Shown here: positions 27,813-48,340 of the stretch, piece after piece
Layout: the number at the start of each line of letters is the position of its first letter
How positions within the stretch are numbered: the stretch's first letter is position 1
NCBI GenBank assembly: GCA_002917075.1
Contig: NTMA01000062.1
Coordinates: forward strand, 1-64,000
Length of the DNA: 64,000 bases
Direction of reading: 5' to 3'
Origin: Hawksworthiomyces lignivorus
Lineage: Eukaryota > Ascomycota > Sordariomycetes > Ophiostomatales > Ophiostomataceae
Notes under the pieces: model-generated
The model's input: only the letters and a program-made list of their open reading frames with translations
Database searches by the model: none
What the model was told of the DNA's origin: nothing
Position numbers and translations under genes: made by a program

Positions 27813-27884
27813 TCTTCTGTAGTATAGTGGTCAGTATGGCGGCTTGTCACGCCGTAGACCCGGGTTCAATTCCCGGCGGAAGAG
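27813..27884 (+). tRNA. tRNA-Asp (GUC)
   Basis: A 72-nt intronless tRNA. The acceptor stem pairs TCTTCTG with CGGAAGA (one G-T pair), the discriminator is G, the anticodon GTC sits in CTTGTCACG, and the B box is GGTTCAATTCC. A T-rich Pol III terminator follows within ten bases. Confidence 0.95.
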
Positions 27885-28178: not shown

Positions 28179-28250
28179 CTCTTCCGCCGGGAATTGAACC
28201 CGGGTCTACGGCGTGACAAGCCGCCATACTGACCACTATACTACAGAAGA
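28179..28250 (-). tRNA. tRNA-Asp (GUC), second copy
   Basis: The same 72-nt sequence as the copy at 27813-27884, on the opposite strand, so the genes converge. The immediate 5' flank TCAGACA is also shared. A run of T on the minus strand terminates transcription. Confidence 0.95.
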
Positions 28251-29057: not shown

Positions 29058-30383
29058 ATGTGGTTGCTAAAGAAACTGACATGGAAACGCCGGTCCCTTG
29101 CAAATTCGGCGGAGGAGGAGAGAAGTCTCGTCGGCAATGGCCCCACAGAGTACAGACAGGCTGAACAGAAGTCTGAGGGTGTTCATGGTGGAAGCTCGCG
29201 ACTGCATCACCGGCGACGGCGTAGGTGGGCCTTTCCAATGGCCGTTGTAGTCGCGGTGATCTCTGTACTCGGGGTACTAGGCTGGTTCGTCCACAAGAAG
29301 ACTACTGAGTTCGCGACATATGAGCCCGCTTCTGGCTCAGGCTGCTCAAACCCTCGCCCTCGACGAGAGTGGAGAAGACTCAGCGATGTCGAAAAAGCCG
29401 AATATATCTCTGCTATCATGTGTCTCCATGAGCTTCCCTCCCGAGTCACCGGCGAAGGTCGCTTGTCGGACGATTTCCCCTGGATTCACAAGCGGGTTGG
29501 AGAGATAAGTAAGTCACCCACGACGTCTGCGCAGCCGCAACCTCACTAATTGCTTTTCAGCTCATTATGCGGCGCCATTCTTGCCGTGGCATCGGTACTT
29601 TATACATCTCTATGAACAGGCTCTTCGTGAGTCTTGTGGCTATCGCGGACAGATCCCGTATTACATCCCCTTAGTTTGCCATCCAAGGAGTGTGAAATGC
29701 TGATATCACGAGTACAGATACTGGGACTGGACACTGGACTGGGAAGATCCCACACGGTCTCCCGTTTGGGATGCAAAGGCTGGCTTTGGTGGCGATGGAA
29801 CTTCTGGAGGAGACTCCAGCGTCCGCTGGGGCACGTGCATTGCAGAGGGGCCCCTTGTCGGCTACCAGGTTCACTGGAACAACCGCACGGCAAAGCCGCA
29901 CTGCCTTTCTCGCGGTTTCGGCAGGCAGACTTATCCAGCTCATTTTATAGGGGATAATCTGAGTCCCCGTACTGTGCAGACCGCACTCGAGAAAAGAAGT
30001 TTCTTTGATTTCTCAATGCAAATTGAGATCGGACCGCACAATGCCATCCCAATGAACATATGCGGGGACTTCATGCTCTTTGAAGCACCGAATGGTAAGT
30101 GAGACGTCCTAGCTTGACTTCACGGGTCCTTTGCTCTACATGCTGAATCGGCGTGGTAGATCCTATATTTTTTCTGCACCACACGCAACTAGACCGTTTG
30201 TGGTGGACCTGGCAGAAGCAGACGGCGGAAAAGGCTATAGAATATAATGGCCCAAAACAGGGTGAATCACAAGAGCCTGCTTCGCTAGATGATGTCCTCC
30301 CAATGCATGGATTAGGCCCAGATCTATCCGTACGGGACCTGATGGACACAGAAAGCGGCATCTTCTGCTATAAATATGAATAG
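29058..30383 (+). CDS. membrane-anchored tyrosinase, RiPP cluster oxidase (382 aa)
   Basis: Type-3 copper oxidase that hydroxylates or oxidises phenols such as Tyr. Exons: 29058-29508, 29561-29657, 29718-30094, 30160-30383, all junctions in frame. After a basic cytosolic N-terminus (residues 1-55) there is one membrane helix (FPMAVVVAVISVLGVLGWFV), so the enzyme domain faces the lumen or outside. CuA is seen as WIHK, THYAAPFLPWHRYF, and CuB as GPHNAIP, DPIFFLHHTQLDRLWW; the HNAIP form is usual in short fungal tyrosinases. It is the homologue in role of the tyrosinases found in ustiloxin-type clusters. It lies 1.4 kb from the precursor gene, whose repeats contain two Tyr each, which makes the precursor the likely substrate. 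A one-mismatch copy of the cluster motif lies in its promoter. Confidence 0.9.
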
Positions 30384-31745
30384 GCTTTTGTCACTAGCTT
30401 CCAGTAGTTAGGTCTCTACCTGTCATGGGATGAACTAAGATAGTCCTGAACTACTTGGTTCTATTGTTGAGCAGTGCTTATACAATACCATGCCTATAGG
30501 TCGATACCGTATGCCTATCACTTGAATGCCGTGGTGATACACTGTATATAGCACTATATAAAGAGGGCTCCTTGCCCTGCCTCCCTCTAGGATATCCTTT
30601 TTGGCCTCTCCTAATCAATTGCTCTACTCAAACTGGCTTGACATCTATCTTGAAGTAGCTGTTGAGGTCTCAAACTCCTTTCGCGCGGCCCATCCCACTG
30701 ATAGCGCAATTTCATCCAGTACATGTATTTTACTTTGCCGCAGAGCCAGCATAGGGACTGTTAGGGTCGCGTAAGTAGTTATACAGATTTGAGCGAGGCC
30801 ACTACGTGACATACGTTTTGCGATTGGTTTCCCTACCAATTGCAGCTTCCACGGTAGCTGTCTGTCAATACATCATATCTGCTACAATATAACATCTGCA
30901 CGGAATGACATGTCCATCCCATGATGTTCCGGAACGGCATAGGCGCTGGAAACGAAAGGCCATACAGCTTTATTAGCAGTATCCGCGCTTGCCAACTTCA
31001 CGATAACCCCATTGTTAAGTGATAGGTTTAGCGTTAGGTTCCACACGATATGAAATTTGAATAATAGCATGCTTTACCTAGTAATGTCCTTTACTCGTCG
31101 GTCTCGACAGAGTTAAACTCGACTCAAGCTCAATAGGATCTCCTTTCCCCGCTAATTCTTCCAAGCCCGTTTATTTGGCTGTGGTTTCACTAGACAGTAG
31201 ATAGGGACAGAGGGAAGCTATTCATATACCACCCACCAGCTTATGCCCCCCTGCTCCCCATAAGAAGATTAATCAGAAACATTCTGGAGGACTTCGATCA
31301 TAATAATTGGCTTCGTTATCGTTAATGAGTAATATATATTGGGCCCATATATTATACAAGTTTGCCAACCTATAATTAACGCCGGGATCGGGGCCGGCAG
31401 CGCCTAGTGTTGCAAAGCACTCTTCTAGCAGTGATGAGTCTTAAAAAGTGTATTCTCTGAAGAACTTGAGCGGTGTATAGGTATAGTTTAATGTGCAATA
31501 ATGGAACAGGACTATAAGTTTATGTAGGTTTGTATTTCAGGCAATCGGTAACGACAGGGTCATCACCTCTTTCTGTAATAGCTATCTATTAGGGAGTGTG
31601 GTATTATATACTAAGGAAACTTTATACGGCATCATACCGTAACTTGATTTAATCTCTTATATCATAGCGGTGGATTTTGCCCTAGAAGACTCCATCGAGT
31701 ACAGACGCTAGATAGTCGGGGTTTCCTCAATAAAGCGATGAAACA
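30384..31745. other. intergenic, 1.36 kb between tyrosinase and precursor
   Basis: AT-rich, holding the 3' ends of the two flanking genes. I saw no frame with UstYa, methyltransferase or peptidase features, and no repeat. Confidence 0.5.
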
Positions 31746-32312
31746 CTATTCGCTAGTCTCGCTCGTAACAGTAGTGTACTGGTAACCAACCTCGCGTTTC
31801 TCGTTAGCGGTGTCGGATTTGACAGTAGTGTACTGATAGCCAACGTCACGTTTCTCATCCGGCTCGGTTTTCACAGTAGTGTATTGGTAGCCAACGTCAC
31901 GTTTCTCGTTCGGCTCGGTTTTCACAGTAGTGTACTGATAGCCGACATCACGTTTCTCATCCGGCTCGGTTTTCACGGTAGTGTACTGATAACCAACGTC
32001 ACGTTTCTCATCCGGCTCGGTTTTCACAGTAGTGTATTGGTAGCCAACGTCACGTTTCTCGTTCGGCTCGGTTTTCACAGTAGTGTACTGATAGCCGACA
32101 TCACGTTTCTCATCCGGCTCGGTTTTCACAGTAGTGTATTGGTAGCCAACATCGCGTTTCTCGTCAGGGGTGTTGGATTTAACAGTGGTGTACTGATAGC
32201 CGATCTCCTTCTTGGCTAGGGACTCAGCCGGGGCCACGGGAATAGCATGGGCTGGCGCCGGCACGCCACTGATGGCAAGAGCCGCAGTAACGAGGATCTT
32301 GGTCAAGAGCAT
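31746..32312 (-). CDS. dikaritin-type RiPP precursor with nine Kex2-bounded repeats (188 aa)
   Basis: A single-exon secreted precursor. A signal peptide (about residues 1-23, MLLTKILVTAALAISGVPAP then AHA) and a short leader IPVAPAESLAKK are followed by nine repeats. Each contains the invariant core GYQYTTV, preceded by DV, EV or EI. The central units read DVGYQYTTVKTEPDEKR (17 residues) with D or N before EKR; units 1 and 8 are one residue longer, and unit 9 ends the protein without KR. The Lys-Arg pairs are Kex2 sites. This is the layout of UstA, PhomA and GigA precursors, whose cores are released in the Golgi and crosslinked by UstYa proteins and tyrosinase. The core sequence is not one I know from described products. 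Two exact GCGGCACGC motifs lie 300-390 bp upstream. Identity of the final cyclic peptide is inference. Confidence 0.9.
   Translation of the reverse strand: MLLTKILVTAALAISGVPAPAHAIPVAPAESLAKKEIGYQYTTVKSNTPDEKRDVGYQYTTVKTEPDEKRDVGYQYTTVKTEPNEKRDVGYQYTTVKTEPDEKRDVGYQYTTVKTEPDEKRDVGYQYTTVKTEPNEKRDVGYQYTTVKTEPDEKRDVGYQYTTVKSDTANEKREVGYQYTTVTSETSE
31840..32129 (-). repeat. 51-bp tandem repeats with a 153-bp higher-order period
   Basis: The central precursor units repeat every 51 bp. On top of this, about 137 bp (31840-31976) is identical to 31993-32129, exactly 153 bp apart, so a block of three units (order D, N, D before EKR) was duplicated as a whole. Confidence 0.85.
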
Positions 32313-32980
32313 GACGAAAGTTTTGGGGGAGCTAATCGGATAATGGTTGGAGTATAGGTATTCTATCGGGTAGGCGTTTTCCTTATTTCCTGCCGTTGAT
32401 CAGTTGTACCGTTTTGTTATTCAGGTGACAATGGCTAACAGCTTCTTATATTGGTTGACGACATCTTGTGTCCTCTGTGTTATTAAAGCTACAGTCTTCT
32501 CTTTGCTGATATTAGAAACTATGACCCACTTCGTGCCACTTGGGAGCCTGGTTGTAATCGCATACGGCGCTTCGCCAGAGCCAGACACAACCTGCTGGAC
32601 TACACGGGCGGCACGCGATCACATCTAACTATAGTGGTGTGAAGATCCATTTGTCGCGCGGACCGCCGATAATTCGGATGCCAGATTCTCGCGTGCGGCA
32701 CGCCAAAGATGATTGACCGCACTTTTTGGTGTGCGAAAGTTAGATGGAAGGAGGTATCGTTGATAGCAGTACATGGTCTCGATTTGAAAATGATCACGTC
32801 ATGGAAATTATCAGCAAATCTAGGGGTTTAAGGCTGGTGTAGTGGATTTTGAGGATCTTAGTTTAGGAATGCAGAAAGCCTCTGTTGATCTAAACTCAAG
32901 GTAATAGCTTGTTCAGTGAATTTGCGCCCTAGGGCCATCGCACAAGATAGGACTGCAATCCAGGCACTATTGTGAAGTTC
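32313..32980. promoter_or_regulatory. precursor promoter with two cluster motifs
   Basis: The upstream region of the precursor gene, 668 bp, also the 3' flank of the next UstYa gene. It contains GCGGCACGC at 32608-32616 and again at 32695-32703; the second is part of a perfect 13-bp palindrome, GCGTGCGGCACGC (32691-32703). A CCG-N6-CGG element (32664-32676 area) lies nearby, a spacing typical of Zn2Cys6 sites. No coding region. Confidence 0.5.
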
Positions 32981-34146
32981 TCAATCTATCAAGACCGATG
33001 CAGACATCTCCTTATCCATGTGATCTCCATCAATCGGCAGACCGGTATTGTTGCGTCTCTGTGCCCACTCAAAGATTGCTTCAAAATTCCGACACCGCCG
33101 CACATCAGAGTGATGAGCGAAGAAGGCATCAAGCTGCGTGCTGTGCTCCATGGTAATTGGAGTAATATCGCTACGACACATGACCGTCTGGCGAAGATAA
33201 TTGATGCAGTGATCTAAGCAAGCCATATCAGTTACGTTGCTAGTTATACGGTAATAAAACCAAAAAGTATACCTAGGTGTGGCCAATTTTGCTCAGCCGT
33301 GGTGTGGCTTGGTCTGCTCGAGAGTTCCTGGCGGAGTCGCTTCTGTATAACAAGTTGGCACCATATTTCAACAGGAAGATGTGTAGAAAGTTGTGAATTC
33401 TTACAAGGCAATGTAGCTGGTGGAATACTTCCAACTCCACGATGTGCTGCGTAGGATCGTAGGCATTTTGAGCTGAAGATATAGGGAGTCTGCTATTTTC
33501 CTGCCCTGATATAGAGATGAAGCCGACTGTTTCCTATTAGAATGACCAACCGTCTCCGTGAGTAAAGCATTCAGTGCTACTTGCCACTCAAGAGCCGATC
33601 CCATTCCGCATTATTCTTTGAGTTCGGCCAACCTTCGTATGGACCTGCCTCGCTTGGGTCTGAATGAAAGCCGACGCGGTAAAACGCCTGGTCTTCGTAG
33701 GTGATGGGTGCGTCGTCATAGATATCTAGGCAAAGATCATTAGTAGATTCAGCCTCAGCTTCGCGGTAAAAGCGATGGATACAATATTGAGATGTTGAGT
33801 ATGGATCGAAAGGCATACTTTCACTGCCAAATTTGCACACGGATTTTGTGTCTCCCTTCCGCAGATAATCTATTACGAGTGCCATGTACGTGACAAAGAG
33901 GAACAGCACCGCCATGAGACATAGCATTTGTCGAAGCCTAGATGCCACAGTTCCTCCTGTTTTGCTACTTACTTTTCCAGCGAGGAAAGTTTGAGTCTCG
34001 AGGTTGACTTCTTCCATGGAGCCACGCGTTGCGGAAATATCCATCTTTTCATCATCATCCATAGTTTCACGCATAGGCTCAAACATCTGTGCTTGTTCTG
34101 ATTGCTGAAATCTCAAAATTCGCCTCGAGAATTGTTTCCAATCCAT
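32981..34146 (-). CDS. UstYa-family (DUF3328) oxidase 1 (309 aa)
   Basis: UstYa-type enzymes catalyse oxidative cyclisation or halogenation-like steps on ribosomal peptides. Exons on the minus strand: 34146-33588, 33472-33405, 33342-33273, 33213-32981; the sum is exactly in frame. The second intron interrupts directly after HQLHCL, and the third rebuilds HLDHC, giving both catalytic HxxHC motifs (HQLHC and HLDHC). The second is followed by the family block INYLRQTVMCRSDITP. One membrane helix (MLCLMAVLFLFVTYMALVI) follows a cytosolic N-terminus of about 70 residues. The first intron donor (GTGGCA) is weak but the frame requires it. Divergent from the next UstYa gene, with the cluster motif in between. 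Confidence 0.88.
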
Positions 34147-34659
34147 CTTTGGAAGAATTGTGAGGGCTGCGGGTCATAGAGCAAGACGTGAACGGCGTGA
34201 ATAACGTGGATGAGACCGACGGCTCAATGCACAGTTCTGACGAAGCAGATGTGGAACTGGTCCTCAAAATGTTGTCTACAAGCCCTGGTTGCAATAGCCT
34301 GCGACGCGCCGTTACAATTCCGTGCCGCTCTCTCGCGTAAGCCTAACTTTCGCATGTGAGCGTGCCGCTAGTCTGACGAGCGCCGATCCCCACCAAATGA
34401 TGCCAGAAGACGACTGCGACAACACGGCGGCTAATATCTTGGAGGAAAGAAGTAGTGACTTTGAATACTGTTTTACCTACGAGAAATGAAGACTTGAAGC
34501 GTCTTACGTTCGTTTACGACCTTCTGGTTTGCATTGGCCAACACTGGGGCGATCGGATATCACAGCCTTGTTTATCGCTCGTAATCCCAGGTTATAACGC
34601 GTGGTCCTTAGCTACAAAACTAACGCTTGATGTATTTTCCTTGGCAGCGTCTCAAGTCC
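34147..34659. promoter_or_regulatory. divergent UstYa promoter with cluster motif
   Basis: Shared by two divergent UstYa genes. It contains GCGTGCCGC (reverse complement of GCGGCACGC) at 34360-34368 and a one-mismatch version at 34320-34328. Confidence 0.5.
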
Positions 34660-35500
34660 ATGACACCGGCTTATATGCCTGTCAAAGACTCCGAGGAATC
34701 CGAAAGGCTACGCCCAGACCCGGAGGCTCTACAGCCGGAGCAGCGCCGTGGCCTCTTAGCAGGAGCAGCTTTGGCTCTCCGGTCTCCGATACTGGGCATC
34801 TGCCTCCTGGGGTTCAATATAGGCCTGTTTCTCATACTCCTAGTTACTTCGAGATGGGCAGGTAACCAGAATGCAACACAGCTTGATCATGAAGGGCTTC
34901 AAGCAGCTGTACCAGACTGTAAGAACAACATCTCGACACACGAGAGGCAAACGCGATGAACGGGAGGAAGCTTAAAAGCTAATTCGCTACGACCAGTTCA
35001 AACAGAGGTCAAGTTGTTCAACCCAGACTATGCGTACTGGGATACGGATGACAACGACAAGGTCTGGGAGGCATTAGGCGGTCGTAAGCAACCTCGCCCC
35101 GGTAAATCACCTTGCTTCACGGTGCTAATCACCTACCCTGTCTCAAGCCAATTCGCCTCTTTTCGTCAATATCGGTGCATCACTGGGGAGTGAGACTGGT
35201 GTTTATGGGGTTTCCATGCTCCACCAACTTCACTGTCTGACAAGCCTTCGTTCCTTGCTCGTTGGACGCGCTCAAGGCGCCCAGAGAAGGGACCCTCATG
35301 TCCATGACATGAATCATGTGTTACATTGCTTTGACTATCTTCGGCAAGGCATCCAGTGCTCCGCGGACTTGTCGCTTGAGCTCCCTGTGAGAGGACCCAA
35401 CGTGCCGCCCATGACGATCGATGGCTGGGGCCAATTACATACCTGTAAGAATTGGGAGGACATCTGGGACTGGATTGTACACAAAAGATCATTAGACTAG
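34660..35500 (+). CDS. UstYa-family (DUF3328) oxidase 2 (232 aa)
   Basis: Exons: 34660-34918, 34997-35083, 35148-35500, in frame with GTAAGA and GTAAGC donors. A short basic N-terminus is followed by one membrane helix (ILGICLLGFNIGLFLILLV). The lumenal domain has both catalytic motifs, HQLHC in MLHQLHCLTSLR and HVLHC in MNHVLHCFDYLRQ, then IQCSAD, so it belongs to the same subfamily as the UstYa protein encoded at 32981-34146 and to UstYa proper. The C-terminus GWGQLHTCKNWEDIWDWI is typical. An in-frame upstream Met at 34630 is possible. Probable role: oxidative crosslinking of the GYQYTTV cores. Confidence 0.88.
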
Positions 35501-35882
35501 GAGTGGCTAGCCAGCTATTAGAGACCCGAAAGTATATTAGGTAATGAATTCAGAGCTGTGTATTTAATGATCCCAGCCAAATGTCATGTCAGTTTATCTC
35601 AGCTCCCACGGGATTTCAAGCGCCCCTCCAATATAAAGCTCACGGTGCCGGAAAATTGTCTTAGAGTTATTTCAGGCCTACAGAGCCCGTATACACTCAC
35701 GTCAAAGAACGAACAATGTAATGGTTTGTGTTATCCATACTATGGACTCGTGACTGAATACATCAAACAGCAATAACTTGCACGAAGACACAGTATTTTA
35801 AATAAAGTCTTATACGTGTCGCAGTTACAGATGCTCATTCGGTGCTTGTCAGAGCGATATTATGGCCTCTTCAAAATTTCTT
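35501..35882. other. intergenic, convergent 3' ends
   Basis: Between the 3' ends of two UstYa genes. No gene or motif seen. Confidence 0.5.
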
Positions 35883-36695
35883 TCAAAACTCATGCTCCGG
35901 CCTAACCAGCATTCCACAGCTCGGGAACTGTCGTACCAATCCGGTGTTGACGAACTCCAGCGGCGTATCCCTCCAGTCTATCAACATATGTTCGCAGTGC
36001 ACTGTGTGGCCGTAGGCCCCCACGTAGCCATCGATGGCACCAAGCCCCGTCCGTGATAGCAGTGCCCGATGCATCTTCCGCCAGAGAAGGGTGCAGTGGC
36101 GCAAGTGGTACTCGTGGCTGACGTAGAGAATCGCGTATTCGCCGGTGATGGCGCTCTCTATTGATATTGGGATTGTCTTGTTCTTGTCAAGATAGTAATC
36201 CCAAGGATGCATGGAGGTGAATTCGTCGATGAGTTCTTGGTCGTAGCACTGCTCTGGAAGCCACAAGAAACTCATCACGTCGAATCGACATCCACGTGCC
36301 CGGGCCTCCTTGGCGCTATTTCCGCAGGGTTTCTCAAACGAGTTGAGATGTGGGATGGATGAATGCAATGGTGCTGGCTCTGGAGTGGCCGGGATGTCGC
36401 ATGAGCTGTGCCATCGTTGATCTGCGAGGAGAACAATGATGATTGTACCAGCCATAAGTACGACAAATAAAAGGACATGTGCCGTAAAGTATCCGTGTAG
36501 ACTGCTGAGACACTGGCGAAGCTTTCCGTGGTCGCTCCTTTGCCATAGACCGCGCCATTCCACTTCATCTTCGTTGACCGTTTCAGACAAGGAGCTTGAC
36601 CGAAGTGTTATGTCTTGTGCCAGGCTCTTTTTTCCAGCAGAACGGTCATCCGCTGGATTGAGCAATACGGCTTCTGTCAAATCATCGGTATACAT
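35883..36695 (-). CDS. UstYa-family (DUF3328) oxidase 3 (270 aa)
   Basis: A single-exon protein; the start chosen is MYTDDLTEAV because the preceding 39 codons look like leader sequence (the frame opens at 36812). The membrane helix is FTAHVLLFVVLMAGTIIIVL. The lumenal domain has the signature of the second UstYa subfamily: CGNSAKEARARGCRFDVMSF, then WLPEQCYDQELI. The HxxHC motifs are HLRHC (in EYHLRHCTLLWRKMHRAL) and HTVHC near the end (YGHTVHCEHML). It lacks the LRQxxxCxAD block of the first subfamily. Divergent from the UstYa gene at 37287, with the motif between them. Confidence 0.87.
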   Translation of the reverse strand: MYTDDLTEAVLLNPADDRSAGKKSLAQDITLRSSSLSETVNEDEVEWRGLWQRSDHGKLRQCLSSLHGYFTAHVLLFVVLMAGTIIIVLLADQRWHSSCDIPATPEPAPLHSSIPHLNSFEKPCGNSAKEARARGCRFDVMSFLWLPEQCYDQELIDEFTSMHPWDYYLDKNKTIPISIESAITGEYAILYVSHEYHLRHCTLLWRKMHRALLSRTGLGAIDGYVGAYGHTVHCEHMLIDWRDTPLEFVNTGLVRQFPSCGMLVRPEHEF

Positions 36696-37286
36696 TGCGT
36701 ATTTGGTATCCTCTATGGTGTGTAAATCCCAGGCGATACGGTATCTCAAAGAAAGCAATGCCGAATCTGGACACTGATGACCAAAACTGAGATGGAAGAG
36801 CAATGCCGGCAAAAAGGCAGCTTTCTTCTAAAAAGAGCAAATAGTTAAAAGCATTGTCAGGTCATTAGTAGTCAGCCAATCCTGTTACATCGATTGTGTT
36901 AGTTGGTGATTCTTATTGGCGTGCCGCCCACCTCGTTGCGTGGCGCCCAGGGACTAGGGAGGCCAGAAAAAAAGCAATGTGAGAGTTGATTGCAGTAGCG
37001 AGGGAGGTGACTGAGGGGCCTTAGAATTGAATAAACCAATTAAGACCACTTCCGCCAGTAGCTCTTGTATATGGGCGGCAGAGTGTTACAAGGCTGACCC
37101 GGAGATGTGTTTGCTACCTTTCCTACCCTCTACTCACATAGCTAGACCGTCGACTCGACACGCCACATAACTGACTATAGACACCCAGTGATGCAGTGAT
37201 CAACTAACATATATTCTGGCATCTCAACTTTCGCACGCCAGGTCCTCTTTAAGAGAATCACTTCTTCACTTAGCTCACTGTTATCG
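36696..37286. promoter_or_regulatory. divergent UstYa promoter with cluster motif
   Basis: Shared by the UstYa genes at 35883 (minus) and 37287 (plus). GCGTGCCGC occurs at 36919-36927, preceded by TTATTG, a context also seen next to the motif at 43013. Confidence 0.5.
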
Positions 37287-38018
37287 ATGTGGCTACGCAA
37301 CCTTTCTCCCGTGTACGGCCTGCTCCGAGGCAACCCGCCGGAAGAACAGTCTTCACAAGCGGATGATAATGGTAGTGAGAGACCACACCAACTAGCCTTG
37401 GAGAATGTCAATATTGGCCGCAGCAAATTGAGACGGTTTGGAGAGATGGTATTTGCTGTCACGGCTTGTCTCTGTTTCTGGGTCACATTTGTCACGGCCT
37501 GGCGGACAACTCTGCACCCGTTCAATGCGGCGCGCCATTCTCCGAGACTCCAGCAGCAAACCTTAACATGCGGTAACTCGACAGAGCAAGCCACGAAGTT
37601 GGGCTGCGTATTCGACTTGCTCTCGCACAACTGGATTCCTGCGCCATGCATGGACATGGAGATCACGGCGGAGTTCCGCGAATACGTGCTCCATAAGGAG
37701 CGCCATTGGGGCGCGTGGCCCTATTTCACCGACAGCTCAGGTGCCGAGAGAATTAAAGATGAGGTTGCGCTCTCCCAGGTTGGGGACAGACTGGTTGTGT
37801 CGACCTTGGAGGAGCATCTAGCACACTGTGACTTTCTGATCCGACGGATCCACCGCGCGGCCGCCGGGCTTACAAAGATTGACGCATACATTGCTGGTTA
37901 CTCGCACACGCTGCACTGTATCCACCAGTTGCGAAATCCGTTGTCGAGGCCCTTAAACAAGCTGAGTGAAGGATTCTGGGTTGGGTTCTCCGAGTGTACT
38001 ATCGACATCCCTGCATGA
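37287..38018 (+). CDS. UstYa-family (DUF3328) oxidase 4 (243 aa)
   Basis: A single-exon member of the second UstYa subfamily. The membrane helix is MVFAVTACLCFWVTFVTAW near residue 54. The lumenal part has CGNSTEQATKLGCVFDLLSH, NWIPAPCMDMEI, then the HxxHC motifs HLAHC (LEEHLAHCDFLIRRIHRA) and HTLHC (YSHTLHCIHQL). It is closest in layout to the divergent UstYa protein at 35883-36695, so the pair may descend from an inverted duplication. Probable role: oxidation of the precursor cores in the secretory lumen. Confidence 0.87.
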   Translation: MWLRNLSPVYGLLRGNPPEEQSSQADDNGSERPHQLALENVNIGRSKLRRFGEMVFAVTACLCFWVTFVTAWRTTLHPFNAARHSPRLQQQTLTCGNSTEQATKLGCVFDLLSHNWIPAPCMDMEITAEFREYVLHKERHWGAWPYFTDSSGAERIKDEVALSQVGDRLVVSTLEEHLAHCDFLIRRIHRAAAGLTKIDAYIAGYSHTLHCIHQLRNPLSRPLNKLSEGFWVGFSECTIDIPA

Positions 38019-38240
38019 GGCGTGAAGTGCAGGGGTATGAAAATGCGCTGTCATGGTTGGGGGCCATTTAAAGTCGTGGCGTCCAAATTGGATGCAAGGG
38101 GGTGCAGGATAATAGTACTCGTACTTCTCAGATGTTAGCCACAGTGTAATTTCGGTATTTGCCATATAAATACTCTCGTATTGCGGCAGGAGTGGCTAAA
38201 CCTTAAGCCAGCCAATCTTCAAATACGCAACAATAGAGTG

Positions 38241-38937
38241 AATTAAATGCATGTGCCGCCACTTTTTAATAGAGACACCGCCCCCCCTGCGCAGTACTGT
38301 ACTCTGATTGGCTACGTTGACTCTAGCAGTATGATTACCTGGTAGGTACCTACATACCTACCAGGAGACTGAAAATCTACCAGCTTCTGACGCATACATT
38401 CTCGCTATTAATGGGCAGCTCTACGTTCACCATATTCAAGCCAAAATTCAACAGGCAGACAGTTCTGTACCGATTGATTTCATATTCAGTGGCACCTTCC
38501 TGACAGTGCAGCAGGACTACCGGTTTTCTAGAGCCAAGAAGGCGAGTAGACGCCGTCACAAACTCGACTAAACGTACGCCCTATTATTTGAATTTGGTTG
38601 AAAACTGTCTCGTAGGTGTAGTAATTGCAGCTAACTAGAGCATAAAAAAGATTCTGCAGGCGCCGCCATCAGCCATCTGAAGCGGGAACAAAAGAGCAGC
38701 TAGTGAGAGGTACACAAAATAAAGCGGATATATACTAAGCCCGACTTTTTTTTTTGGATTTATTACGAATCTTTTAAGCTGGATTTACTGTATCTGCCTT
38801 CAACTTTTCGCGATAGTTCAATAGAAGGCATCAAATTTGGCCTAATTAGGTAATCTAGTTGATGTGGCCAATCAGAGCACAGTTGGTGCAAGGGGGGGCG
38901 GTGTCTCTATTAAAAAGGGGCGGTGCATGCATCAATT
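38241..38937. mobile_element. MITE-like inverted-repeat element inside the cluster
   Basis: About 80-bp terminal inverted repeats face each other: 38241-38321 and 38858-38937. They share ATGCATG, then TTTTTAATAGAGACACCGCC with a C run, then CTCTGATTGG, with a few differences. The 0.7-kb element has no coding frame, so it is a non-autonomous DNA transposon or a solo derivative. Both ends finish in AATT, so the target duplication is unclear. Inside lies a strong hairpin (38338-38348 pairing with 38355-38365). Confidence 0.65.
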
Positions 38938-39974
38938 CCCATGGAGGAACAATAGGAGCCAACTCGACAAAAGCACATTGGGGGAAGCTTTGATTAGAAG
39001 AAACTATCCGAGCAGAGCTTCCCGCTTTGCAGGAATATGATCGACGCAGCCGGTGAGAATGTATCACCTCATCAAGCTTTTGACTTTCGGATAACCGTCC
39101 TACGGCCTGCTTTATGAGACTACAAAGTGGGCCGTAGGATGGGCAGTTCAACGCACGTAGGACGGCATGCAAGCGATAAGTAATGCGTATAACCCAGCAG
39201 GATGACGTGCCCCAGTGGGATACATAACGATGCTACGCCCTTTACGATCGATATTGACTTCGCCGCTTCCTAGCCTCAATGCTCACTTAGACCGACCATA
39301 CCACTGTTTCTGAGAAAGCTGGCTGTGTCGTGAAGAACTGCCATAAAATGCTGGTCCAGGCCTTGACTAGCCAAGAATTCGTGGCGACATTACAATGTAT
39401 AGCTTACGGGATCCTGCGTTCACGAGTAGGTATTAGACTACGCCGCAGCCAGGCGTGTTGCAGTGCGCTCCTGCGATGTTACAGTACCCTTTACCTAGAA
39501 GGGCCGTCAAACGATGGGCAAGACATCCGGCCGTATGACGTCCGACAAATAGCTGCACATTGATCCTTAGCATTCTGCGTCATAAGTGCTGCCATTTCCC
39601 TTTTTCAGAGCAGTCTCCACACTTGTCGTTCGGTACGAGCTGCTATTGTCATTCACCAGCCACGACGACTCAACCACAGACTCCAGGACTCGGAACCACA
39701 GTAACTACACGGCTTACGGGGTAGCCTATCGGAGGTTCCTCGGGCCTTCGTTCGCAAGCCAATAGACTGGACTGAGGGTGCCTCGTATGGTCGTCACGTT
39801 CGTTTAGAGTTATGTAATGTATTTACATATCGTATCGTCAGTATGGAATCCACTATAGCTTCGGACTACCTGTAAGCCTCGTCGACTCTCTGCGGATGAC
39901 CTCTCATAAACTATTGGTGCTTCATCTACAGACCTTGCGACTGCTCTGCTTGTCTCCCTTAGAATGAATCAAAG
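38938..39974. other. intergenic, upstream of the Zn2Cys6 gene
   Basis: About 1 kb without a supported gene. I did not find an exact cluster motif here. Confidence 0.45.
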
Positions 39975-42205
39975 ATGGGGACCGTCATAACGGTCAAAGG
40001 TTAGTTATTTTCCTTGAACGTGCCGGATACACAGCATTAGTCTAATCAGAGATCCTATCAAGCCGCTCGAAGCCTCCAGGGATGTTGGACATGTCGGCTG
40101 CGGCGGAAAAAGTGCGACGAGACACGGCCGACCTGCTCTGCCTGCCTATCTCTTGAGATTGAGTGTCATGGGTATGGTCCGAAACCAGAGTGGATGGACA
40201 GAGGCCCTTTCCAGAGAGATATGGCTCTCCAGCTCAAAAAGATAATATCTGAGAAGAGATACAATGGGCCTAAGTCTTCGGTGCAGAAGCCATCTCTCCC
40301 TACTCCGTCAACAAAATCGAAGCCAGAGAGTTTGCCGCTGTCTGCACCCGGTTCCAGCGATGCAACTGCCTCTATCTCCAGCCCTCCGGGGAGCTCTTCC
40401 TTTGATTGGGACTTTCTCGCCCTTCAATACGATAGTGCTGCTTTTCAATTTACCGAGTCAGCATCTCCGATCCCGTCTCTTCAAGCAAAGGTACCTAGTG
40501 GACAGCTCCTGGGCCCGGAGGAGCCATGGAGCCCACGCCTCCTCGACGATAGGGTCGTAACTGCCATCAAAAAAGTAGCAAAAGTGTCTTCGCCGCACCT
40601 ACCCATGGATGGGCAGCTTGGTCCTCAAGAGCTTGTCTCTTCCCTGTTGAGTGATTTGGCAGGAGACGATCTTCTGGGCGAGAACATTGCTCTCGATGAA
40701 GCCAATGGAGTTTCATACGATGGTTGCCAGACCTTAGTAACCTGCGACGATTTCTTTCTGCCGTACCAGGAGACGTCTTCGAGCTCGTCGGACCAAGATG
40801 AGAATTCCACTAAAGCGAATGTCGGGGACTGTTCCCCGCCTCCACACAGGGTCAAGCGTCGGCGGACAATCCACATTCTTGAAGACCCAGACCATCAGTT
40901 GCTTATGCACTACCTAGATGAGGTGTTTCATCTCCAATACCCCTTTTACCACAACCGCAGCCGGAAGTCCAGGGGCTGGCTGTACTCGATTCTCCAGTTG
41001 GACAAATCCGCCTACCACGCGGTTCTGATGCTAAGCCAGAACCACCAAACTGCGACACGCGTACAACGCGAGAGCAGCGACTGGGAGCGTCCAACATCTG
41101 CTTCTTGGTCTGATAAGCACCATTATTTGGCCCTTGAACACATGAAGGCTAGCTTGGCTACATCTCACACTTGGAACGACGCTACCGCTCTACTCCGTAG
41201 CTTGGGGATGCTTACATGCATCCTGCACTTGTTGCTTCTGGAGGTAACTAGACCGTTCGCAAATTACATCTGGACTTTGTAGCACTAATACTCTGGTCTC
41301 TCCTGTAGACTCATCCTGGCGGTTCTGGGAAATGGCGGACTCACCTCAAAGAAGCATCAGCGCTGGTTCAAGCCGTGTATCGAGCGAGAACGGAGAACTT
41401 ATCAGAAACAGATGCACAGGCTGGTGAGAGTGAGAAGTTGTCTCAGGACGAAGCGGCGATAGATTTCCTTCTTGGCTCCTTTGTATCATTCGATATCATG
41501 GCCTCCGCGTTGTTGCGGTGTTCTCCACTTCTCAATGTAGACCACGCCGCAATCCTACGTCTAGACGGATTTTGTCTAGAGACGATAGTGGGGTGCGAGA
41601 ATTGGGTCATGGAAGCAATCTTAGACGTCGTACAGCTTGATATCTGGAAGCAGAATGCTTTGAAAGAGCAGAAACTCAGCATCATCGAATTGGCCAAGCG
41701 GGGTACGGCACTCGACAATTTGTTGCAGCAGAAGTTGGCCGAAATAGACAAGGTTTCTGCGCATCGGTGCGACTCAACGGACGAAGCCACAGCTACGATG
41801 TCAAAACGTACAATGCCGTTGGTCCACACAGAAATGACAAAAACTTTTGCATTATCTGCAAGCACATATCTCCATGTTGTTCTCTCTGGAGGCTATCCTG
41901 AGCTCCCCGAGATTAGCGAAACCGTGACCAAAACAATCGAGGCCCTGCGCAATCTATCCGACAAAACGTTAGTCTCGCGGCTTAGCTGGTGTCTCTGTAT
42001 CACGGGTTGCATGGCTCTTGAGTCGCAACAGCACTACTTCACAGAGGTCCTTGAAACCGCCCAGCTTGACAGCTGGCGGGAATGGGCTTGTCAGCAGGCT
42101 ATGGGCATCATGGAAGAGTGCTGGAACGTGAGGAAGGGCAGAACCTCGGGCTGTGATTGGGTTGTGGCTATGAAAAGCTGCGCTCGACATACGCCGCTGT
42201 TCTAG
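39975..42205 (+). CDS. Zn2Cys6 transcription factor, probable cluster regulator
   Basis: The DNA-binding domain (from about 40083) reads GCWTCRLRRKKCDETRPTC then SACLSLEIEC, the spacing CX2CX6CX6CX2CX6C of a fungal binuclear zinc cluster. The main exon runs to 41243; a GTAACT intron (41244-41308) restores LLETHPGGSGKW and the last exon is 41309-42205. The first exon is uncertain: an ATG at 39975 joined to 40050 is in frame but needs a poor donor. The middle is Ser/Pro-rich, and the C-terminal half (VFHLQYPFYHN onwards) resembles the fungal-specific regulatory domain 2. It is the only zinc-cluster factor in the region, so it is the natural candidate for binding GCGGCACGC. Confidence 0.82.
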
Positions 42206-42543
42206 GTAACAACGTGCTCTTCTTTAGGACTACATAAGGTATAAGATTTAAACAAAGTGGATCGCATTAGATAAATACCAACAAATGCACTCATCGGCGC
42301 ATGTCAGCACCTAATCAACCTGACAGATCACGAAGACAATAAGGCGAGATGACATCTTTCTGAACCCGCCACGTAGTTTCCATTCGTAACTTCGTTCTGT
42401 AGTGCCTATCGAGTAGCAGACTTAAAGATTCTAGACAAACATCTCCATACTTGACTCTGCATAGCTGGCGGAGTATCCTACGAGCTTGATATTGATGCTG
42501 TCGCGTATCTATAATAGCTTCGTAGATAATACTTAATTTCCTC
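42206..42543. other. intergenic, convergent 3' ends
   Basis: Between the 3' ends of the zinc-cluster and GFA genes. Nothing recognised. Confidence 0.5.
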
Positions 42544-42900
42544 TCATTTCGGACCATCCGATTTGCGGATCTCAAGTTTTTCGAGGTCGTCCCGCTCCAG
42601 CATCCGACAATTCACCGATATTATTTTGTGCTCCTCTTTATCCGTCGGCTCCCAATGAGTTACACACCCACACTCCTTGCAACGACGGAACTGGAGGTCC
42701 TTGTCGCCCCATGAATAAAAATCAGTAATCCCGTTGCCTTGAATCTGGACTTCTTCGGGCGAAAATGACACCCAGAGAGCTCCGTAGCGTCGACAGATCG
42801 AGCACAGGCACTCGGTAAGTGGTTTCTGAGGTCGTGGGAAGGTGACCCGGATAGCTTTGCAGTGGCACGTGGCCACAAGTGTGGTCTCTGTGTTGTTCAT
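42544..42900 (-). CDS. GFA/CENP-V domain protein (118 aa)
   Basis: A small single-exon zinc-binding protein of the glutathione-dependent formaldehyde-activating (GFA) fold. Zinc ligands are visible as CHCKA near residue 12, CLCSIC near residue 31 and CKECG near residue 73; the length is normal for a single-domain member. GFA-family proteins bind thiols or act on S-hydroxymethyl adducts, but many have no known reaction. It sits within the peptide cluster and shares a promoter with the fifth UstYa gene, in which GCGGCACGC occurs, so it may be co-expressed; a role in peptide maturation is speculation. Confidence 0.82.
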   Translation of the reverse strand: MNNTETTLVATCHCKAIRVTFPRPQKPLTECLCSICRRYGALWVSFSPEEVQIQGNGITDFYSWGDKDLQFRRCKECGCVTHWEPTDKEEHKIISVNCRMLERDDLEKLEIRKSDGPK

Positions 42901-43312
42901 TGCGACATGTGCTAGTTTTGTCAGTATTGAGTATGATGGAGTATGGAGAATGAGGATGAGAACTGGTGGCCAGGGCGGGTATTCCCCATATCAGCAGTCT
43001 GCCTGGATGCAAGCGGCACGCCTTATTGGCGGTACGCCTGGCTGACTGCAGACCTGGTCGGCGATACGCTTGAATCTCGCAAAATTGCGCATAGATGCTT
43101 ACGAACCGCTTCTTTAGAACTGGTAAACCTAGACCCTGCCAATCGGGATATTGGGACTGGACGTGTCTGTTATCTTCGAGCCCTAGTCGCAGCAGGAATT
43201 GACTTTATTTCCCACAAAATGAGTATCTACGACAATTCCAGGGAGTTCGCCAAAGTCTTACCATAACGGCTTTGAACTGTACTTTGAAACTCACAACAAA
43301 CAACAGTCCTAG
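42901..43312. promoter_or_regulatory. divergent GFA/UstYa promoter with cluster motif
   Basis: Contains an exact GCGGCACGC at 43013-43021 and, directly after TTATT, the related GGCGGTACGCC. A 107-codon frame from 42943 is open here but has no recognisable features. Confidence 0.5.
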
Positions 43313-44065
43313 ATGGCGTCATACACGAAACTCCAGTTCCCCTCACAAGACACTGATCTAGAAAGCGAGTCTAGCCACCAGTTTTCACATGCATCGCCGT
43401 CGACTTCGTACAAGTGGCGATCCTTGCTATGCGTTGCGTTGTCGGCGATTATAATCGGAGCTGGCATATCAGCTGCCTTTCTGTCCCTATCTCCTCATCG
43501 AGAGCTGCGGTATCCATCATATCCGGGGATATCCAAGCCGGCATCCGCATGTTCCGTTTCGGACGGCTCGTTTTGTGTTAACAACACAGATCTGGTACTG
43601 GAGTGTGGCGACACTCATGCGGACGCCGTTGCTCGTGGCTGTATCCTTGATGTGATGGCCAACGCATGGGTACCGCCGGCGTGTTATGACCCTGTCGCCG
43701 CCACAGAGGCCCTAGGGCCATATGAGTTTTTCTTGGACGGCAATTACACCATACCACTGAGCATGGCAGATCTTCAGAAGCTAGAGTCTTTGCATGCCTT
43801 TACGAACAAGGGGTATCATGTCGCGCATTGCCTATATGAGTGGGCGCACGGGATACGGGCTGTGAATCAGGTCTTGAATGGGGAATCGCCAGTGTATGTG
43901 CGCAGTAGTTCGCTGAGTGATGAGCACGTGGGACACTGCACCGAGGTAATCATGAAACAGATAGTCCAGCCGGACTTGAAAGACGAGGGCGCATTTGGGC
44001 TGGCGAAATGCGTACGTTTAGATGATGGTGAGGGCCGGAAAAGAATATCTGCATATATTAGTTGA
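43313..44065 (+). CDS. UstYa-family (DUF3328) oxidase 5 (250 aa)
   Basis: A single-exon member of the second UstYa subfamily. The membrane helix is LLCVALSAIIIGAGISAAFL near residue 38. The lumenal part has ECGDTHADAVARGCILDVMA, NAWVPPACYDPV, then HVAHC (KGYHVAHCLYEWAHGI) and HVGHC (DEHVGHCTEVIM). The N-glycosylation-like NNTD and NYTI fit a lumenal domain. It is separated from the other UstYa genes by the inverted-repeat element and the regulator, but shares the motif. Confidence 0.87.
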   Translation: MASYTKLQFPSQDTDLESESSHQFSHASPSTSYKWRSLLCVALSAIIIGAGISAAFLSLSPHRELRYPSYPGISKPASACSVSDGSFCVNNTDLVLECGDTHADAVARGCILDVMANAWVPPACYDPVAATEALGPYEFFLDGNYTIPLSMADLQKLESLHAFTNKGYHVAHCLYEWAHGIRAVNQVLNGESPVYVRSSSLSDEHVGHCTEVIMKQIVQPDLKDEGAFGLAKCVRLDDGEGRKRISAYIS

Positions 44066-44369
44066 AAGACGCATCAAAATCCTAAACATAGAATTAATGA
44101 CATTCCGCATCTTGTGTGATAATTTACTATACTACTTGAACTATTCTATCCACGAAGCCACACTGGCCTGCATTACTGCATCATATCGTACCTGCAGTGA
44201 AGTAGGAGATCGAGGTTGGTAAACTTTCAAGACACCACAGACCAGAAGTCAGGACAATAAAACTCGCAAGCGAACTGGCACTCTATTAATTAAAAAAATA
44301 ATAATAATAAAATAAACAGAAAAAGATCAATTTAAACGCTTGAATGATATTGCCACCGCCAAACACTTA
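44066..44369. other. intergenic, convergent 3' ends
   Basis: Contains an ATA/ATAATAATAATA microsatellite near 44290-44312. No gene. Confidence 0.5.
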
Positions 44370-46112
44370 TTACAATTCTGGCAGTGATCTGATGGCCCAC
44401 GCTGCGGCTAACGCGGCCACACCACCCGCCCTCAACAGCCAGACCTCTACCCCCGGACCTGCTATCAGGAAGACCAGACCGCTCCCCAACGCGGCAAGAA
44501 TCTGAGGACCAGCAATGGCCATATTGTGGATTCCCATTGTGGTGGCTGTCATGTCTTGCTCATGTCCGCAGTCGGTAGTGTTCTGATGACCAGTGTCATC
44601 CTCTTGCATTCGGATATCCTTCGAGATCAGTGTATAGGGGATCCAAGAAGAGCCCGCAGACACCAATCCCATGACTCCAACCATAACCCAAGCTTCTTCG
44701 AAAGACTGGAATAGGAAGGTTGACATCATGCACATGAAGAATAGTACCTGGCATGACATCCAGATCCTTCGTAGAGAGAAAAAATCTCTAGCTGACTTAG
44801 CATAGGACACTCTTGGCTTTTCGGTGAGTTCCGAAGCCGATGCTTGCACAATCAAAGGTAGTATGATGCCCATCACGAGCTGCGATGATGCAAATACCAG
44901 CATTGCAAAGGAGCCACTCTGGGTCATTTCATTTTGCTCAGAGGCAGAGACCGGCGGATATAAGGGAAAAGACCGCTCCACAAGCTCACTGACATATCTA
45001 GGAATACGACAATGTTAGTCGAATTCATATAGAATAGTGATGGAGCGTACTTGCTTGGCTGTATAGAACAGGAACGGGAACCATGCCAACCAGGAGAAGA
45101 ACTGGGCAAGACAGACGGATCTTATTACACCAGAAATCCGCTCGACGCTCTTGATTACATCCATCAGACCGCTGCGGGTTGTTGGTGAAGATCTTGTTAT
45201 CCCTGGAAGCACCAGGCTCGATGGTTGCGTTTCCACTGCCGAAAAGCAGGTGATCGCAATACATATCGCCAGATTGATCGATATAATGCTGCACAATATC
45301 TGAAACTGAGTACGTCCAAGGTAGCCTGAGAGTCCAGTAAGGTCCAGAGAGCTGATGTAGAAACCGATAATGTTCCCTGTGAAGGTCAATCTTGCAACCC
45401 ATGCATTTACCCGCATCTGCTGATGTCCTGGGATGAGGTCGACAATTAGCGACCGCAAACCCATTTGTACTGGCTGGATGGCAAGATTGGCGGTCCACAG
45501 GCAGATGTTGACAAAAATGACGAGATCCAAGTGTAATTCAGTCAAGACTAGGTGGTCTTGCTCCAGCGTCGCAAACTGGGAAGCATCGGGATGAGAAGAC
45601 TGCACCTCCTTATCATTCATTATCTCTAGTCCAGAGATCCCTGAAAGCGAGGCGGTGATCTCCTTCGCCCAAGCCATTGACACCATGGCCAAGATAACTG
45701 TTGCACCTCCCAACACGACGAAAGGCCTCCTTCTACCCCATCTGCCGGTGTAGCTGTCACTCAACATGCCAACGTAAGGCTGGAACAGAAGACCCGCGAC
45801 GGGACCTGCGAGCCAGCACATTGAAATGACCGTGTCGCTAAAGCCCAGGGAAGCCAGGTAGAAATTACCGCTACCAAAGAACACCGTAAACACACCTTGA
45901 AGCCCAAGAAATCCTACGCCGAGAGACAATATATATTTTGTGTTCTTGGACGTTGGATCTGGTGGTGATAGAATAGCTGGATCGTCGTTTTCTGAGACTA
46001 TGCCATCTTCTCTTTCGATAGAGGAACGCAACTGGAGGTCCTGATATGTATCCTCTGTGATATGCAGTTGAACATCTCCGGAAGGCATTCTTCGCAAGAT
46101 GTCAAGCTGCAA
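44370..46112 (-). CDS. GPH/SUT-type MFS transporter of the cluster (561 aa)
   Basis: A twelve-helix membrane transporter related to sucrose/alpha-glucoside proton symporters. Exons on the minus strand: 46112-45055 and 44997-44370. The intron is of the GC-AG type (AA|GCAAGT donor), and only this choice restores FLFYTAKYVSELVERS. Signatures: GRWGRRRPFVVLGG after TM2-3 and the matching SWIPYTLISKD in the second half. The large loop between TM6 and TM7 is hydrophilic. In clusters of this sort, a transporter of this family is unusual; it may export the peptide or simply import sugar. A one-mismatch cluster motif (GCGGCGCGC) lies at 46430-46438 upstream. Confidence 0.87.
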
Positions 46113-47165: not shown

Positions 47166-48340
47166 TCACACACATGGCTCCTTGATTCCTGTCCCAATTA
47201 GCCAATAGTTAATCGGCATACTGGCAAAATGTCCAAAAACCATGCCAATTTGCATCATCCACCAATACGTAACCATGGTGGTCTCCAGCTTCCATTGCCA
47301 GATCGCGATTTGATAGATGGCCATCCACCCAAACAACCCGATCTCGAAGAACAGCAACGATAGAACATCCGCCTTTGCTGCCCGCCAAATGGTCTTCAGC
47401 CCATACTCTCCGGCCATGGGCGCTATCGTAAAGTATTGGAATATGATGCCAAAACCCATAGCAAAGGCAAAATCGACGATGAAAGCTAGCCAGAGGGGTC
47501 GGCCGGCAATCGAGCCGTTAACCCCATAGACAAGCCATTCACCTACAATATCGCCAATGGTACAGCCGGCACCGCAATGGCACACTCCTATCGTGACGGT
47601 CGCAAACATTGGGATGTTGGAAGAAGCCATGTGATGCTGCTGGTGGCCGTTATGCTCGGAAGAAGCCAAGTGGTGGTGCTGGTGGCTGTTATGCTCGGAA
47701 GAGGCTAATTGGTGCTGCTGATGACCGTTATGCTCGGAAGAGGCCACGTGGTGGCACTGATGATCGTTATGCTCAGAAGAAGCTATCTGGTGTTGCTGGT
47801 GGTCGTTGTGCTCGGAAGAGGCCATATGGTGTTGGTTTGGGTCAGGATTATGATGACTGCCATCTCCCATATTTTCTTCTTCATCAAAACCATTATTGTC
47901 CTTGTGATTTTTAGCATGATGGTGCCGATTCTGTTGTTCATCGGATGCTATGCCATTGTGGCCGTCGAGAGCCATGTCGGGATCCCGAGTCCCACCATGC
48001 CCTTGTCTAGCGTTAGTGTCGCGGTGGTGGTGAGAAGTGGCTCCTTCCTTGCGATCTGGTTTTGGTGGTCGACCATATTTCAGATACATCCATAAAGTGA
48101 CGGGGTATATGTAGAGAGCATTGATGATGTATACTGGAATCCTAGAAGATGTGAGAAGGCTGGTTCACAAACTTACAATGGTCCATACACTAACATTATC
48201 CACATCATCGACTTCCATCCTCTCCTCCACATAATGTCTAATGCGATCCAGGCGGCCGCGCATGCTGCAATGCTCAAAAATATGGAGGAAACGATAACGA
48301 GACTCTTCGGTTCACTATACTGTGAGTTTATATCCGCCAT
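47166..48340 (-). CDS. DUF4396 membrane protein with His-rich tandem repeats (379 aa)
   Basis: Exons on the minus strand: 48340-48177 and 48141-47166. The intron (48142-48176) is only 35 nt yet has a perfect GTAAGT donor and TCTAG acceptor, and its removal rebuilds GPLIPVYIINALYIYPVTLW in frame. Two N-terminal helices are followed by a ~110-residue hydrophilic loop with five 13-residue repeats such as MASSEHNDHQQHQ, very rich in His, then the DUF4396 core with CHCGAGCTIGDIVGEW and four more helices. The His repeats and CHCGAGC suggest binding of a transition metal (Cu, Zn or Ni). Transport is a guess. It lies just outside the motif-bearing cluster genes. Confidence 0.82.
47630..47825 (-). repeat. 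39-bp tandem repeats coding a His-rich loop
   Basis: Five units of 39 bp (13 residues) with the invariant segment ASSEHN and varying His/Gln positions. Confidence 0.8.

Follow-up and report, generated by a model that had tools for sequence, protein, structure and literature searches.

A candidate dikaritin-type RiPP cluster with two families of HxxHC proteins in Hawksworthiomyces lignivorus

What is made from a precursor protein that repeats one heptapeptide nine times, and how do the proteins encoded around it contribute? These questions are raised by a locus of the fungus Hawksworthiomyces lignivorus, at positions 29,058-46,112 of a 64,000-nucleotide stretch (the window), which is part of contig NTMA01000062.1 (C151 in our numbering) in a genome of 43.7 Mb and 191 contigs. 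Here a tyrosinase, a repeat precursor, five HxxHC proteins, a Zn2Cys6 regulator and a transporter resembling the major facilitator superfamily (MFS) lie together, in the left-to-right order tyrosinase, precursor, C, D, E, F, regulator, GFA-family gene, G and transporter (the letters C-G are our own names), with C/D and E/F arranged as divergent pairs, each with a common promoter. The introns of its genes and their fungal domain families mark the DNA as fungal. Gene models were built on the DNA alone; in these models the tyrosinase, the precursor and C-G all have open frames, and the introns are GT-AG. The locus is probably a dikaritin-type cluster for a ribosomally synthesised and post-translationally modified peptide (RiPP), making a cyclic peptide from (V)GYQYTTV that is crosslinked through tyrosine side chains, with core ends, crosslinks and product predicted from the genes.

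The repeat precursor and the dikaritin-type reading

The precursor gene (31746-32312, minus strand) is a single exon encoding 188 aa. Its N-terminus is hydrophobic and signal-like, as judged by eye and by hydropathy, and is followed by PAPAHA. The protein contains nine exact copies of GYQYTTV at a spacing of 17-18 aa, separated by KTEPDEKR-type spacers with the Kex2-type KR; GYQYTTV starts two residues past KR in eight of the nine copies, and two residues past KK in the first. Pairwise comparison of the core codons gave 88 synonymous differences and not one non-synonymous, six of the seven codons being variable in the DNA, while the residues flanking the core vary both before it (Asp in seven copies and Glu in two, then Val in eight and Ile in one) and after it (Lys in eight and Thr in one, then Thr in six and Ser in three). 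This ratio of 88 to 0 alongside varying flanks argues for selection on the peptide itself. A chance origin of the repeat was ruled out: 2000 shuffles of the precursor past residue 22 produced no 7-mer in more than two copies, and a repeat search of the DNA independently detected a tandem array of 51-bp units at the gene. Judged by these repeats, VGYQYTTV is an equally good core. The calculated [M+H]+ values are 831.388 for GYQYTTV, 829.373 after loss of 2 H, 827.357 after loss of 4 H and 843.352 after gain of O and loss of 4 H, and for VGYQYTTV 930.457, or 928.441 and 926.425 after loss of 2 H and 4 H. Neither GYQYTTV nor YQYTTV occurred in the literature searched, and no relative of the precursor was found elsewhere in its own genome, the one extra match being these repeats read in a different frame, interrupted by six stops.

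The original prediction had placed a precursor, a membrane-anchored tyrosinase, five paired-HxxHC proteins, a zinc-cluster regulator and a transporter within 17 kb, an inventory that the gene models and domains confirm. Its reading of the locus as a dikaritin-type RiPP cluster is well supported by the Kex2-repeat precursor, the UstYa proteins C and D, the UstQ/PhomQ-family tyrosinase, the conservation of the cores and the shared promoter words. It had also described a methyltransferase, a flavin monooxygenase and an S41 peptidase as absent, which holds for the window open reading frames (ORFs) scanned with Pfam (sets of 9, 10 and 10 ORFs and four proteins, several window ORFs lying outside the scan): methyltransferase, S41 peptidase, cytochrome P450 and class-B flavin monooxygenase were all without a match among them. 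When the locus is compared with the dikaritin definitions quoted in the available text of PMC12048977, it contains a precursor with leader and repeated cores, DUF3328 proteins, a tyrosinase and, where a transporter or peptidase is named, a transporter; the methyltransferase of the older definition was not found in the ORFs scanned. According to the same text, DUF3328/UstYa is class-defining in the later definition, and working clusters without one or more of the enzymes have been reported. By that DUF3328-based definition, as quoted there, the dikaritin-type reading stands.

It is conceivable that the precursor is instead a Kex2-processed source of linear secreted peptides, signal- or pheromone-like, and that the oxidases act elsewhere. 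The product of the cluster is so far only predicted, and linear products may be common, because in the available part of PMC7329392 DUF3328 was among the 15 closest genes for only 1758 of 7878 (22%) Kex2-repeat proteins. However, this precursor is flanked by five HxxHC genes and a tyrosinase of the UstQ/PhomQ type, and the HxxHC genes share its promoter words. The core also contains two tyrosines, and according to that part of PMC7329392 tyrosine-containing repeats are more frequent in the DUF3328-linked set (65.6%, compared with 38.2%), and almost all annotated mating-factor or pheromone genes have no DUF3328 neighbours. We regard a linear product as improbable.

Two families of HxxHC proteins

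The five HxxHC proteins each have an N-terminal hydrophobic stretch (19-residue hydropathy peaks of 1.97-2.81; E 2.81, F 1.97, G 2.39) and two HxxHC motifs, without internal stops. Protein C is encoded at 32981-34146 on the minus strand (exons 34146-33588, 33526-33405, 33342-33273 and 33213-32981; HQLHC...HLDHC), with an intron splitting its second motif, and D at 34660-35500 on the plus strand (exons 34660-34918, 34979-35083 and 35148-35500; HQLHC at 35222, HVLHC at 35315). Both match PF11807 (E-values of 3.4e-37 and 2.7e-23), and they are, by Pfam, the only UstYa (DUF3328) proteins among the five. Proteins E (35883-36695, minus strand; HLRHC at 36107-36093, HTVHC at 36008-35994), F (37287-38018, plus strand; HLAHC at 37815, HTLHC at 37905) and G (43313-44065, plus strand; HVAHC at 43817, HVGHC at 43925) matched no Pfam family at E <= 0.1 and none in NCBIfam. 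The original prediction had called all five proteins UstYa; this was correct for C and D, and E, F and G belong in a separate, unnamed group. By their sequences, E, F and G are a distinct HxxHC family outside PF11807 that has been overlooked so far.

An alignment of nine members of this E family (E, F, G, two homologues from the database and four relatives encoded in the same genome) revealed a shared block, CG...A...GC..D.....W.P..C.D. Both HxxHC motifs are present in eight of the nine members, the ninth (C136:187014) having LxxHC and QxxHC, and the second His and the Cys of each motif are kept in all nine. Only two of 765 database candidates were homologues of the E family at E <= 0.001 in a search whose word filter may hide distant members; the same database gave 344 homologues of the tyrosinase. 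Comparison of the E-family profile with a UstYa profile of seven sequences by hhalign placed both motifs in register, with a probability of 27.6% and a P value of 6.5e-4. An AlphaFold2 model of E, built with five sequences, reached a mean predicted local distance difference test score (pLDDT) of 57.5, with values of about 70-75 at the first motif and 48-59 at the second; in this low-confidence model there is one long transmembrane (TM) helix, and the motifs lie on separate helices (194-213 and 228-240). A Foldseek search of the PDB with this weak model gave no match at E <= 0.001. Sequence searches of the PDB found no relatives of either the UstYa or the E profile, and there is thus no solved fold for a UstYa comparison.

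Relatives of E recur beside UstYa genes in this genome. At least 27 PF11807 matches were found, on 14 contigs, and a search with E returned ten rows: the three proteins here, relatives on C142, C159, C136 (two genes) and C1, and a weak match on C187; searches with F and G added no further loci. Three of the five other E-type loci (C142, C136 and C1) have a UstYa gene no more than 10 kb away, and those on C159 and C187 do not; 0.66% of the genome is within that distance, and the chance of the observed proximity is 2.9e-6. Kex2-repeat precursors adjoin the E-type and UstYa genes on C1 and C136. In the precursor at C1:840322-841125 (minus strand), a DEAWTFHISTD unit with KR is repeated ten times; a UstYa gene and an E-type gene lie next to it, making the locus a candidate Trp/Phe RiPP cluster. 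The one at C136:192442-192762 (minus strand) has a signal-like N-terminus and four (E/K)DASTEGVVGWADVSK units, and lies among UstYa genes and two E-type genes. In both, the repeats vary synonymously and show no non-synonymous variation apart from the leading E/K (nine and three copies compared). The region 32838-40811 of C142 contains several exons of UstYa type together with an E-type gene whose product is 54% identical to E. A repeat-and-KR scan found no precursors in the 30, 26 and 18 kb searched on C142, C159 and C130, respectively.

The published mechanism of DUF3328 enzymes bears on what E, F and G may do. CctR is a homodimeric binuclear copper enzyme, dependent on O2 and electrons, in which the residues of HxxHC(x)nHxxHC are essential (PMC12435403), and the same paper cites the cyclase AprY as dependent on copper and O2. 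We tentatively suggest that E, F and G make up a second family of HxxHC copper oxidases, bound to the membrane and regularly partnered with Kex2-repeat precursors; together with the two UstYa proteins, perhaps as hetero-dimers, and a tyrosinase with a replaced CuB histidine, they might produce a multiply oxidised Tyr-X-Tyr bicycle, and a nearby His-rich DUF4396 protein may supply copper. A rather unlikely alternative is that the working RiPP core consists of C, D and the precursor, with E, F and G serving as scaffolds, chaperones or dimer partners instead of oxidases. The weak link between E-type and UstYa proteins is in keeping with this, as is the persistence of the paralogue with degenerate LxxHC/QxxHC motifs (C136:187014-187502, minus strand), which is perhaps a non-catalytic partner. 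However, none of the four histidines and two cysteines of the motifs is lost from E, F, G, the relatives on C142, C159 and C1 or either database homologue, and CctR was inactive when these residues were changed (PMC12435403). The occurrence of this family, three times here and beside UstYa genes on three further contigs, would have implications beyond this locus. Genome mining for fungal crosslinked products relies on DUF3328/PF11807 and visible repeats, and a family outside PF11807 is likely to be missed by DUF3328-based searches; such clusters would then be under-counted, and the set of enzymes per product would be larger than assumed.

The tyrosinase and its CuB site

The tyrosinase gene (29058-30383, plus strand; exons 29058-29508, 29561-29657, 29718-30094 and 30160-30383) encodes a membrane-anchored protein of the UstQ/PhomQ type, with 382 aa, an N-terminal hydropathy peak of 2.4 (19-residue window) and a PF00264 match over residues 138-329 (E-value 4.4e-39). 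A broken tyrosinase was considered and rejected: the apparent in-frame stop is intronic, and splicing of intron 2 removes it and restores PYWDW. The 344 homologues found in the database include phomQ1' of Diaporthe (41% identical) and "ustQ" of Fulvia (46%). We aligned the best 120 of these, a sample biased by its choice on similarity to the window protein, together with that protein and its paralogue on C130. An N-terminal hydrophobic stretch is present in 103 of the 120 homologues. The three histidines of the first copper site (CuA) are kept in 116, 119 and 120 of them, the HB1 histidine of the second (CuB) in 113, and the HH pair in 120 and 119. His244-Cys245 is invariant in all 120; alignment of the PDB catechol oxidase 4j3p with the protein extends over this part as well.

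The window protein keeps the three CuA histidines, HB1 and the HH pair, and has proline at HB1+4, a position that is histidine in most of the hemocyanin domains compared. The full set of six copper histidines expected of a type-3 copper tyrosinase is accordingly incomplete, and a sixth ligand could lie elsewhere in the protein. The same proline is found in the C130 paralogue and in 105 of the 120 homologues, phomQ1' among them; the others have Ser (7), His (3: P0043, P0065 and P0120), Arg (2), Gln (2) or Asn (1). A local defect was rejected as the explanation, 117 of the 120 best-matching homologues likewise having no histidine there. As far as the alignment goes, the second canonical CuB histidine is lost from most of the UstQ/PhomQ-type tyrosinases in it. 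Along with the overlooked HxxHC family, this is one of the less expected findings of our analysis; the open-access literature searched yielded no mention of it, and it raises the question of which copper site these enzymes have and which reaction they perform.

Seen alone, a tyrosinase without the HB1+4 histidine could look like decay, and would suit a cluster that is a remnant or silent, with intact-looking genes and a defunct pathway. But the proline is shared by 105 of the 120 homologues aligned, PhomQ is reported in the available text of PMC6514808 to be essential for phomopsins, and the open frames of the tyrosinase, precursor and C-G, their GT-AG introns and the lack of any non-synonymous difference over nine cores all argue against decay, leaving a defunct pathway very improbable. 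In this genome, tyrosinase genes within 10 kb of a UstYa gene occur on C151 and C130, two of the 14 contigs with a tyrosinase. At C130:69601-71996, a UstYa gene adjoins a TM-anchored tyrosinase.

Regulation, proposed pathway and related clusters

Three short words recur in the promoters of the precursor and of HxxHC genes. The precursor promoter (32600-32745) has GCGTGCCGC twice (32608 and 32695), AACTTTCGCA (32732) and one GATGCCAGA; the divergent C/D promoter (34340-34420) has AACTTTCGCA (34345), GCGTGCCGC (34360) and GATGCCAGA; and the divergent E/F promoter (36900-37250) has GCGTGCCGC (36919), GATGCCAGA and AACTTTCGCA (37226). A further exact GCGTGCCGC lies between the GFA gene and G (43013-43021). 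GCGTGCCGC has five exact copies across the window, every one of them upstream of cluster genes (0.57 expected; 0 of 100 shuffles), and the three exact copies of AACTTTCGCA fall one in each of the precursor, C/D and E/F promoters, which also hold GATGCCAGA. The C/D promoter is the only place in the genome with the joint element AACTTTCGCA-N{3,8}-GCGTGCCGC. Five 9-mers are common to at least three of seven promoters, a result matched in 1 of 500 dinucleotide shuffles and in 2 of 1000 sets of non-overlapping window intervals (142 of 500 when overlaps were allowed). These shared words suggest a single regulon made up of the precursor and the HxxHC genes, to which the tyrosinase, regulator and transporter are tied by position and family only. 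GCGTGCCGC as a general signal of E-type loci was rejected, as it was present in 8 of 48 loci examined, where the only site outside C151 was one on C142 (seen in two of the loci).

Several observations weigh against the reading of the locus as a dikaritin-type crosslinking pathway. The 9-mer tests were made post hoc, once the motif had been noticed; in the first 8-mer scan the observed maximum was reached by 20 of 200 shuffles, and the count of shared 8-mers by 75 of 500. AACTTTCGCA is not enriched when one mismatch is allowed (5 copies, 4.6 expected), nor is its 14-base form with two mismatches (4 and 3.8), and its 12-base form AACTTTCGCAYG occurs six times genome-wide, as often as the reversed control, with two of the six here. 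No exact GCGTGCCGC was found in the promoters of the tyrosinase, regulator or transporter, leaving their co-regulation unsupported; the tyrosinase promoter has a one-mismatch site at 28805, one of 30 such sites in the window. The sequence leaves the core ends unfixed. No precursor homologue was found at E <= 0.001 among 5821 word-sharing database candidates, a result that says little on rarity, because short repeat precursors are often unannotated. Finally, the hhalign result is suggestive of no more than a weak link between E, F and G and UstYa, and the model of E is of low confidence and without a PDB fold match.

For the dikaritin-type pathway we propose the following course. The precursor would enter the endoplasmic reticulum and Golgi, where Kex2 would cut at KR into about nine pieces, mostly DVGYQYTTVKTEPDE(KR). 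In the lumen, the TM-anchored tyrosinase would oxidise or hydroxylate the two tyrosines of (V)GYQYTTV, and UstYa C and D might next use C-H activation to form ether or C-C crosslinks to neighbouring side chains, so that copper-mediated crosslinks would arise among the Tyr, Gln, Tyr, Thr, Thr and Val side chains. E, F and G may act as additional oxidases or as partners; two or more oxidations are suggested by the combination of a Tyr-X-Tyr core with a tyrosinase and five HxxHC proteins. Trimming proteases encoded outside the cluster would then release the core, the MFS protein would export it, and expression of the precursor and HxxHC genes is likely to be switched by the Zn2Cys6 protein. According to the available text of PMC6514808, formation of the first cyclic intermediate of ustiloxin requires UstQ, UstYa and UstYb together; asperipin depends on AprY, and no tyrosinase is among the genes listed for it.

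The regulator (about 39976-42205, plus strand; intron 41244-41308) has an approximate start, its frame being clearly open from 40041, and matches Zn_clus (PF00172, 5.2e-10) and, on its second exon, Fungal_trans_2 (PF11951, 9.8e-39). The MFS_2-type transporter (44370-46112, minus strand; model start 46088, one intron near 45000-45075, ends approximate) matches PF13347 in its first exon with 28.4 bits, barely above the cut-off of 27. Two neighbours were missing from the list in the original prediction. The GFA-family gene (42544-42900, minus strand; PF04828, 8.8e-8) lies inside the cluster, divergent to G; with 26 matches to its family in the genome, it is unlikely to be a member of the pathway and is a probable bystander. 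The DUF4396 membrane protein (47166-48340, minus strand, intron position approximate; PF14342, 2.1e-34) is encoded outside the cluster, about 1 kb upstream of the transporter gene, at one of two DUF4396 loci in the genome, and has a His-rich array of 39-bp repeats at 47619-47831. A tyrosinase and five candidate copper enzymes imply a need for copper; an accessory protein delivering Cu(I) or electrons has been hypothesised (PMC12435403), and the available text of PMC7760498 places DUF4396 at the margin of a gene island for metal resistance in bacteria. Our guess is that the DUF4396 protein might handle copper for the cluster, but it could be an ordinary neighbour. To the left, the cluster is bordered by two tRNA-Asp (GTC) genes placed face-to-face about 300 bp apart (27813-27884, plus strand, and 28179-28250, minus strand), with a transaldolase further left, and to the right by WD40 and kinase ORFs, as identified in the Pfam scan. 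About 15 kb to the right lies a FAD_binding_4 oxidase (61645-63243, minus strand).

Comparison with known systems places the locus among fungal crosslinked-peptide clusters, with its own combination of genes. The phomopsin cluster of Diaporthe/Phomopsis leptostromiformis likewise has a signal-bearing precursor with eight KR-flanked cores and an essential PhomQ tyrosinase, and zinc-finger regulators are found in its cluster family, as described in the accessible portion of PMC6514808. It has five DUF3328 genes according to the accessible portion of PMC7329392, whereas two of the five HxxHC proteins here are DUF3328 by Pfam (the phomopsin set was not compared); its core is YVIP rather than GYQYTTV, and counterparts of its PhomM methyltransferase and S41 peptidase were not found in the ORFs scanned. 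The ustiloxin B cluster of Aspergillus flavus shares the repeat precursor and the UstQ tyrosinase, and its UstYa and UstYb are jointly needed for cyclisation in the text available; the core is YAIG, and counterparts of UstM, UstF1/F2, the P450 and UstD were not found in the same ORFs. Asperipin-2a, also from A. flavus, resembles the predicted product in its Tyr-rich core (FYYTGY, an ether-linked bicycle), and its cluster in having the DUF3328 cyclase AprY and a transporter; the four genes listed in the available text of PMC6514808 include one DUF3328 and no tyrosinase, in contrast to the tyrosinase, two DUF3328 and three E-type proteins here, where no aprR-like reductase was seen. In lichens, the RiPP Clan R1 also combines a tyrosinase with adjacent DUF3328 genes, whose products have two HxxHC motifs; as far as the available text of PMC12048977 goes, it has a methyltransferase and an FGE-sulfatase and no repeat precursor was found, the reverse of the situation here. 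The DUF3328 copper oxidases CctR, ApnU and AprY are like E in having a TM anchor and two HxxHC motifs on two helices (in the low-confidence model of E, and in CctR as described in PMC12435403). Unlike those enzymes, E, F and G have no PF11807 match and carry a conserved block, CG...GC.[FLY]D...W.P..C.D, ahead of their motifs.

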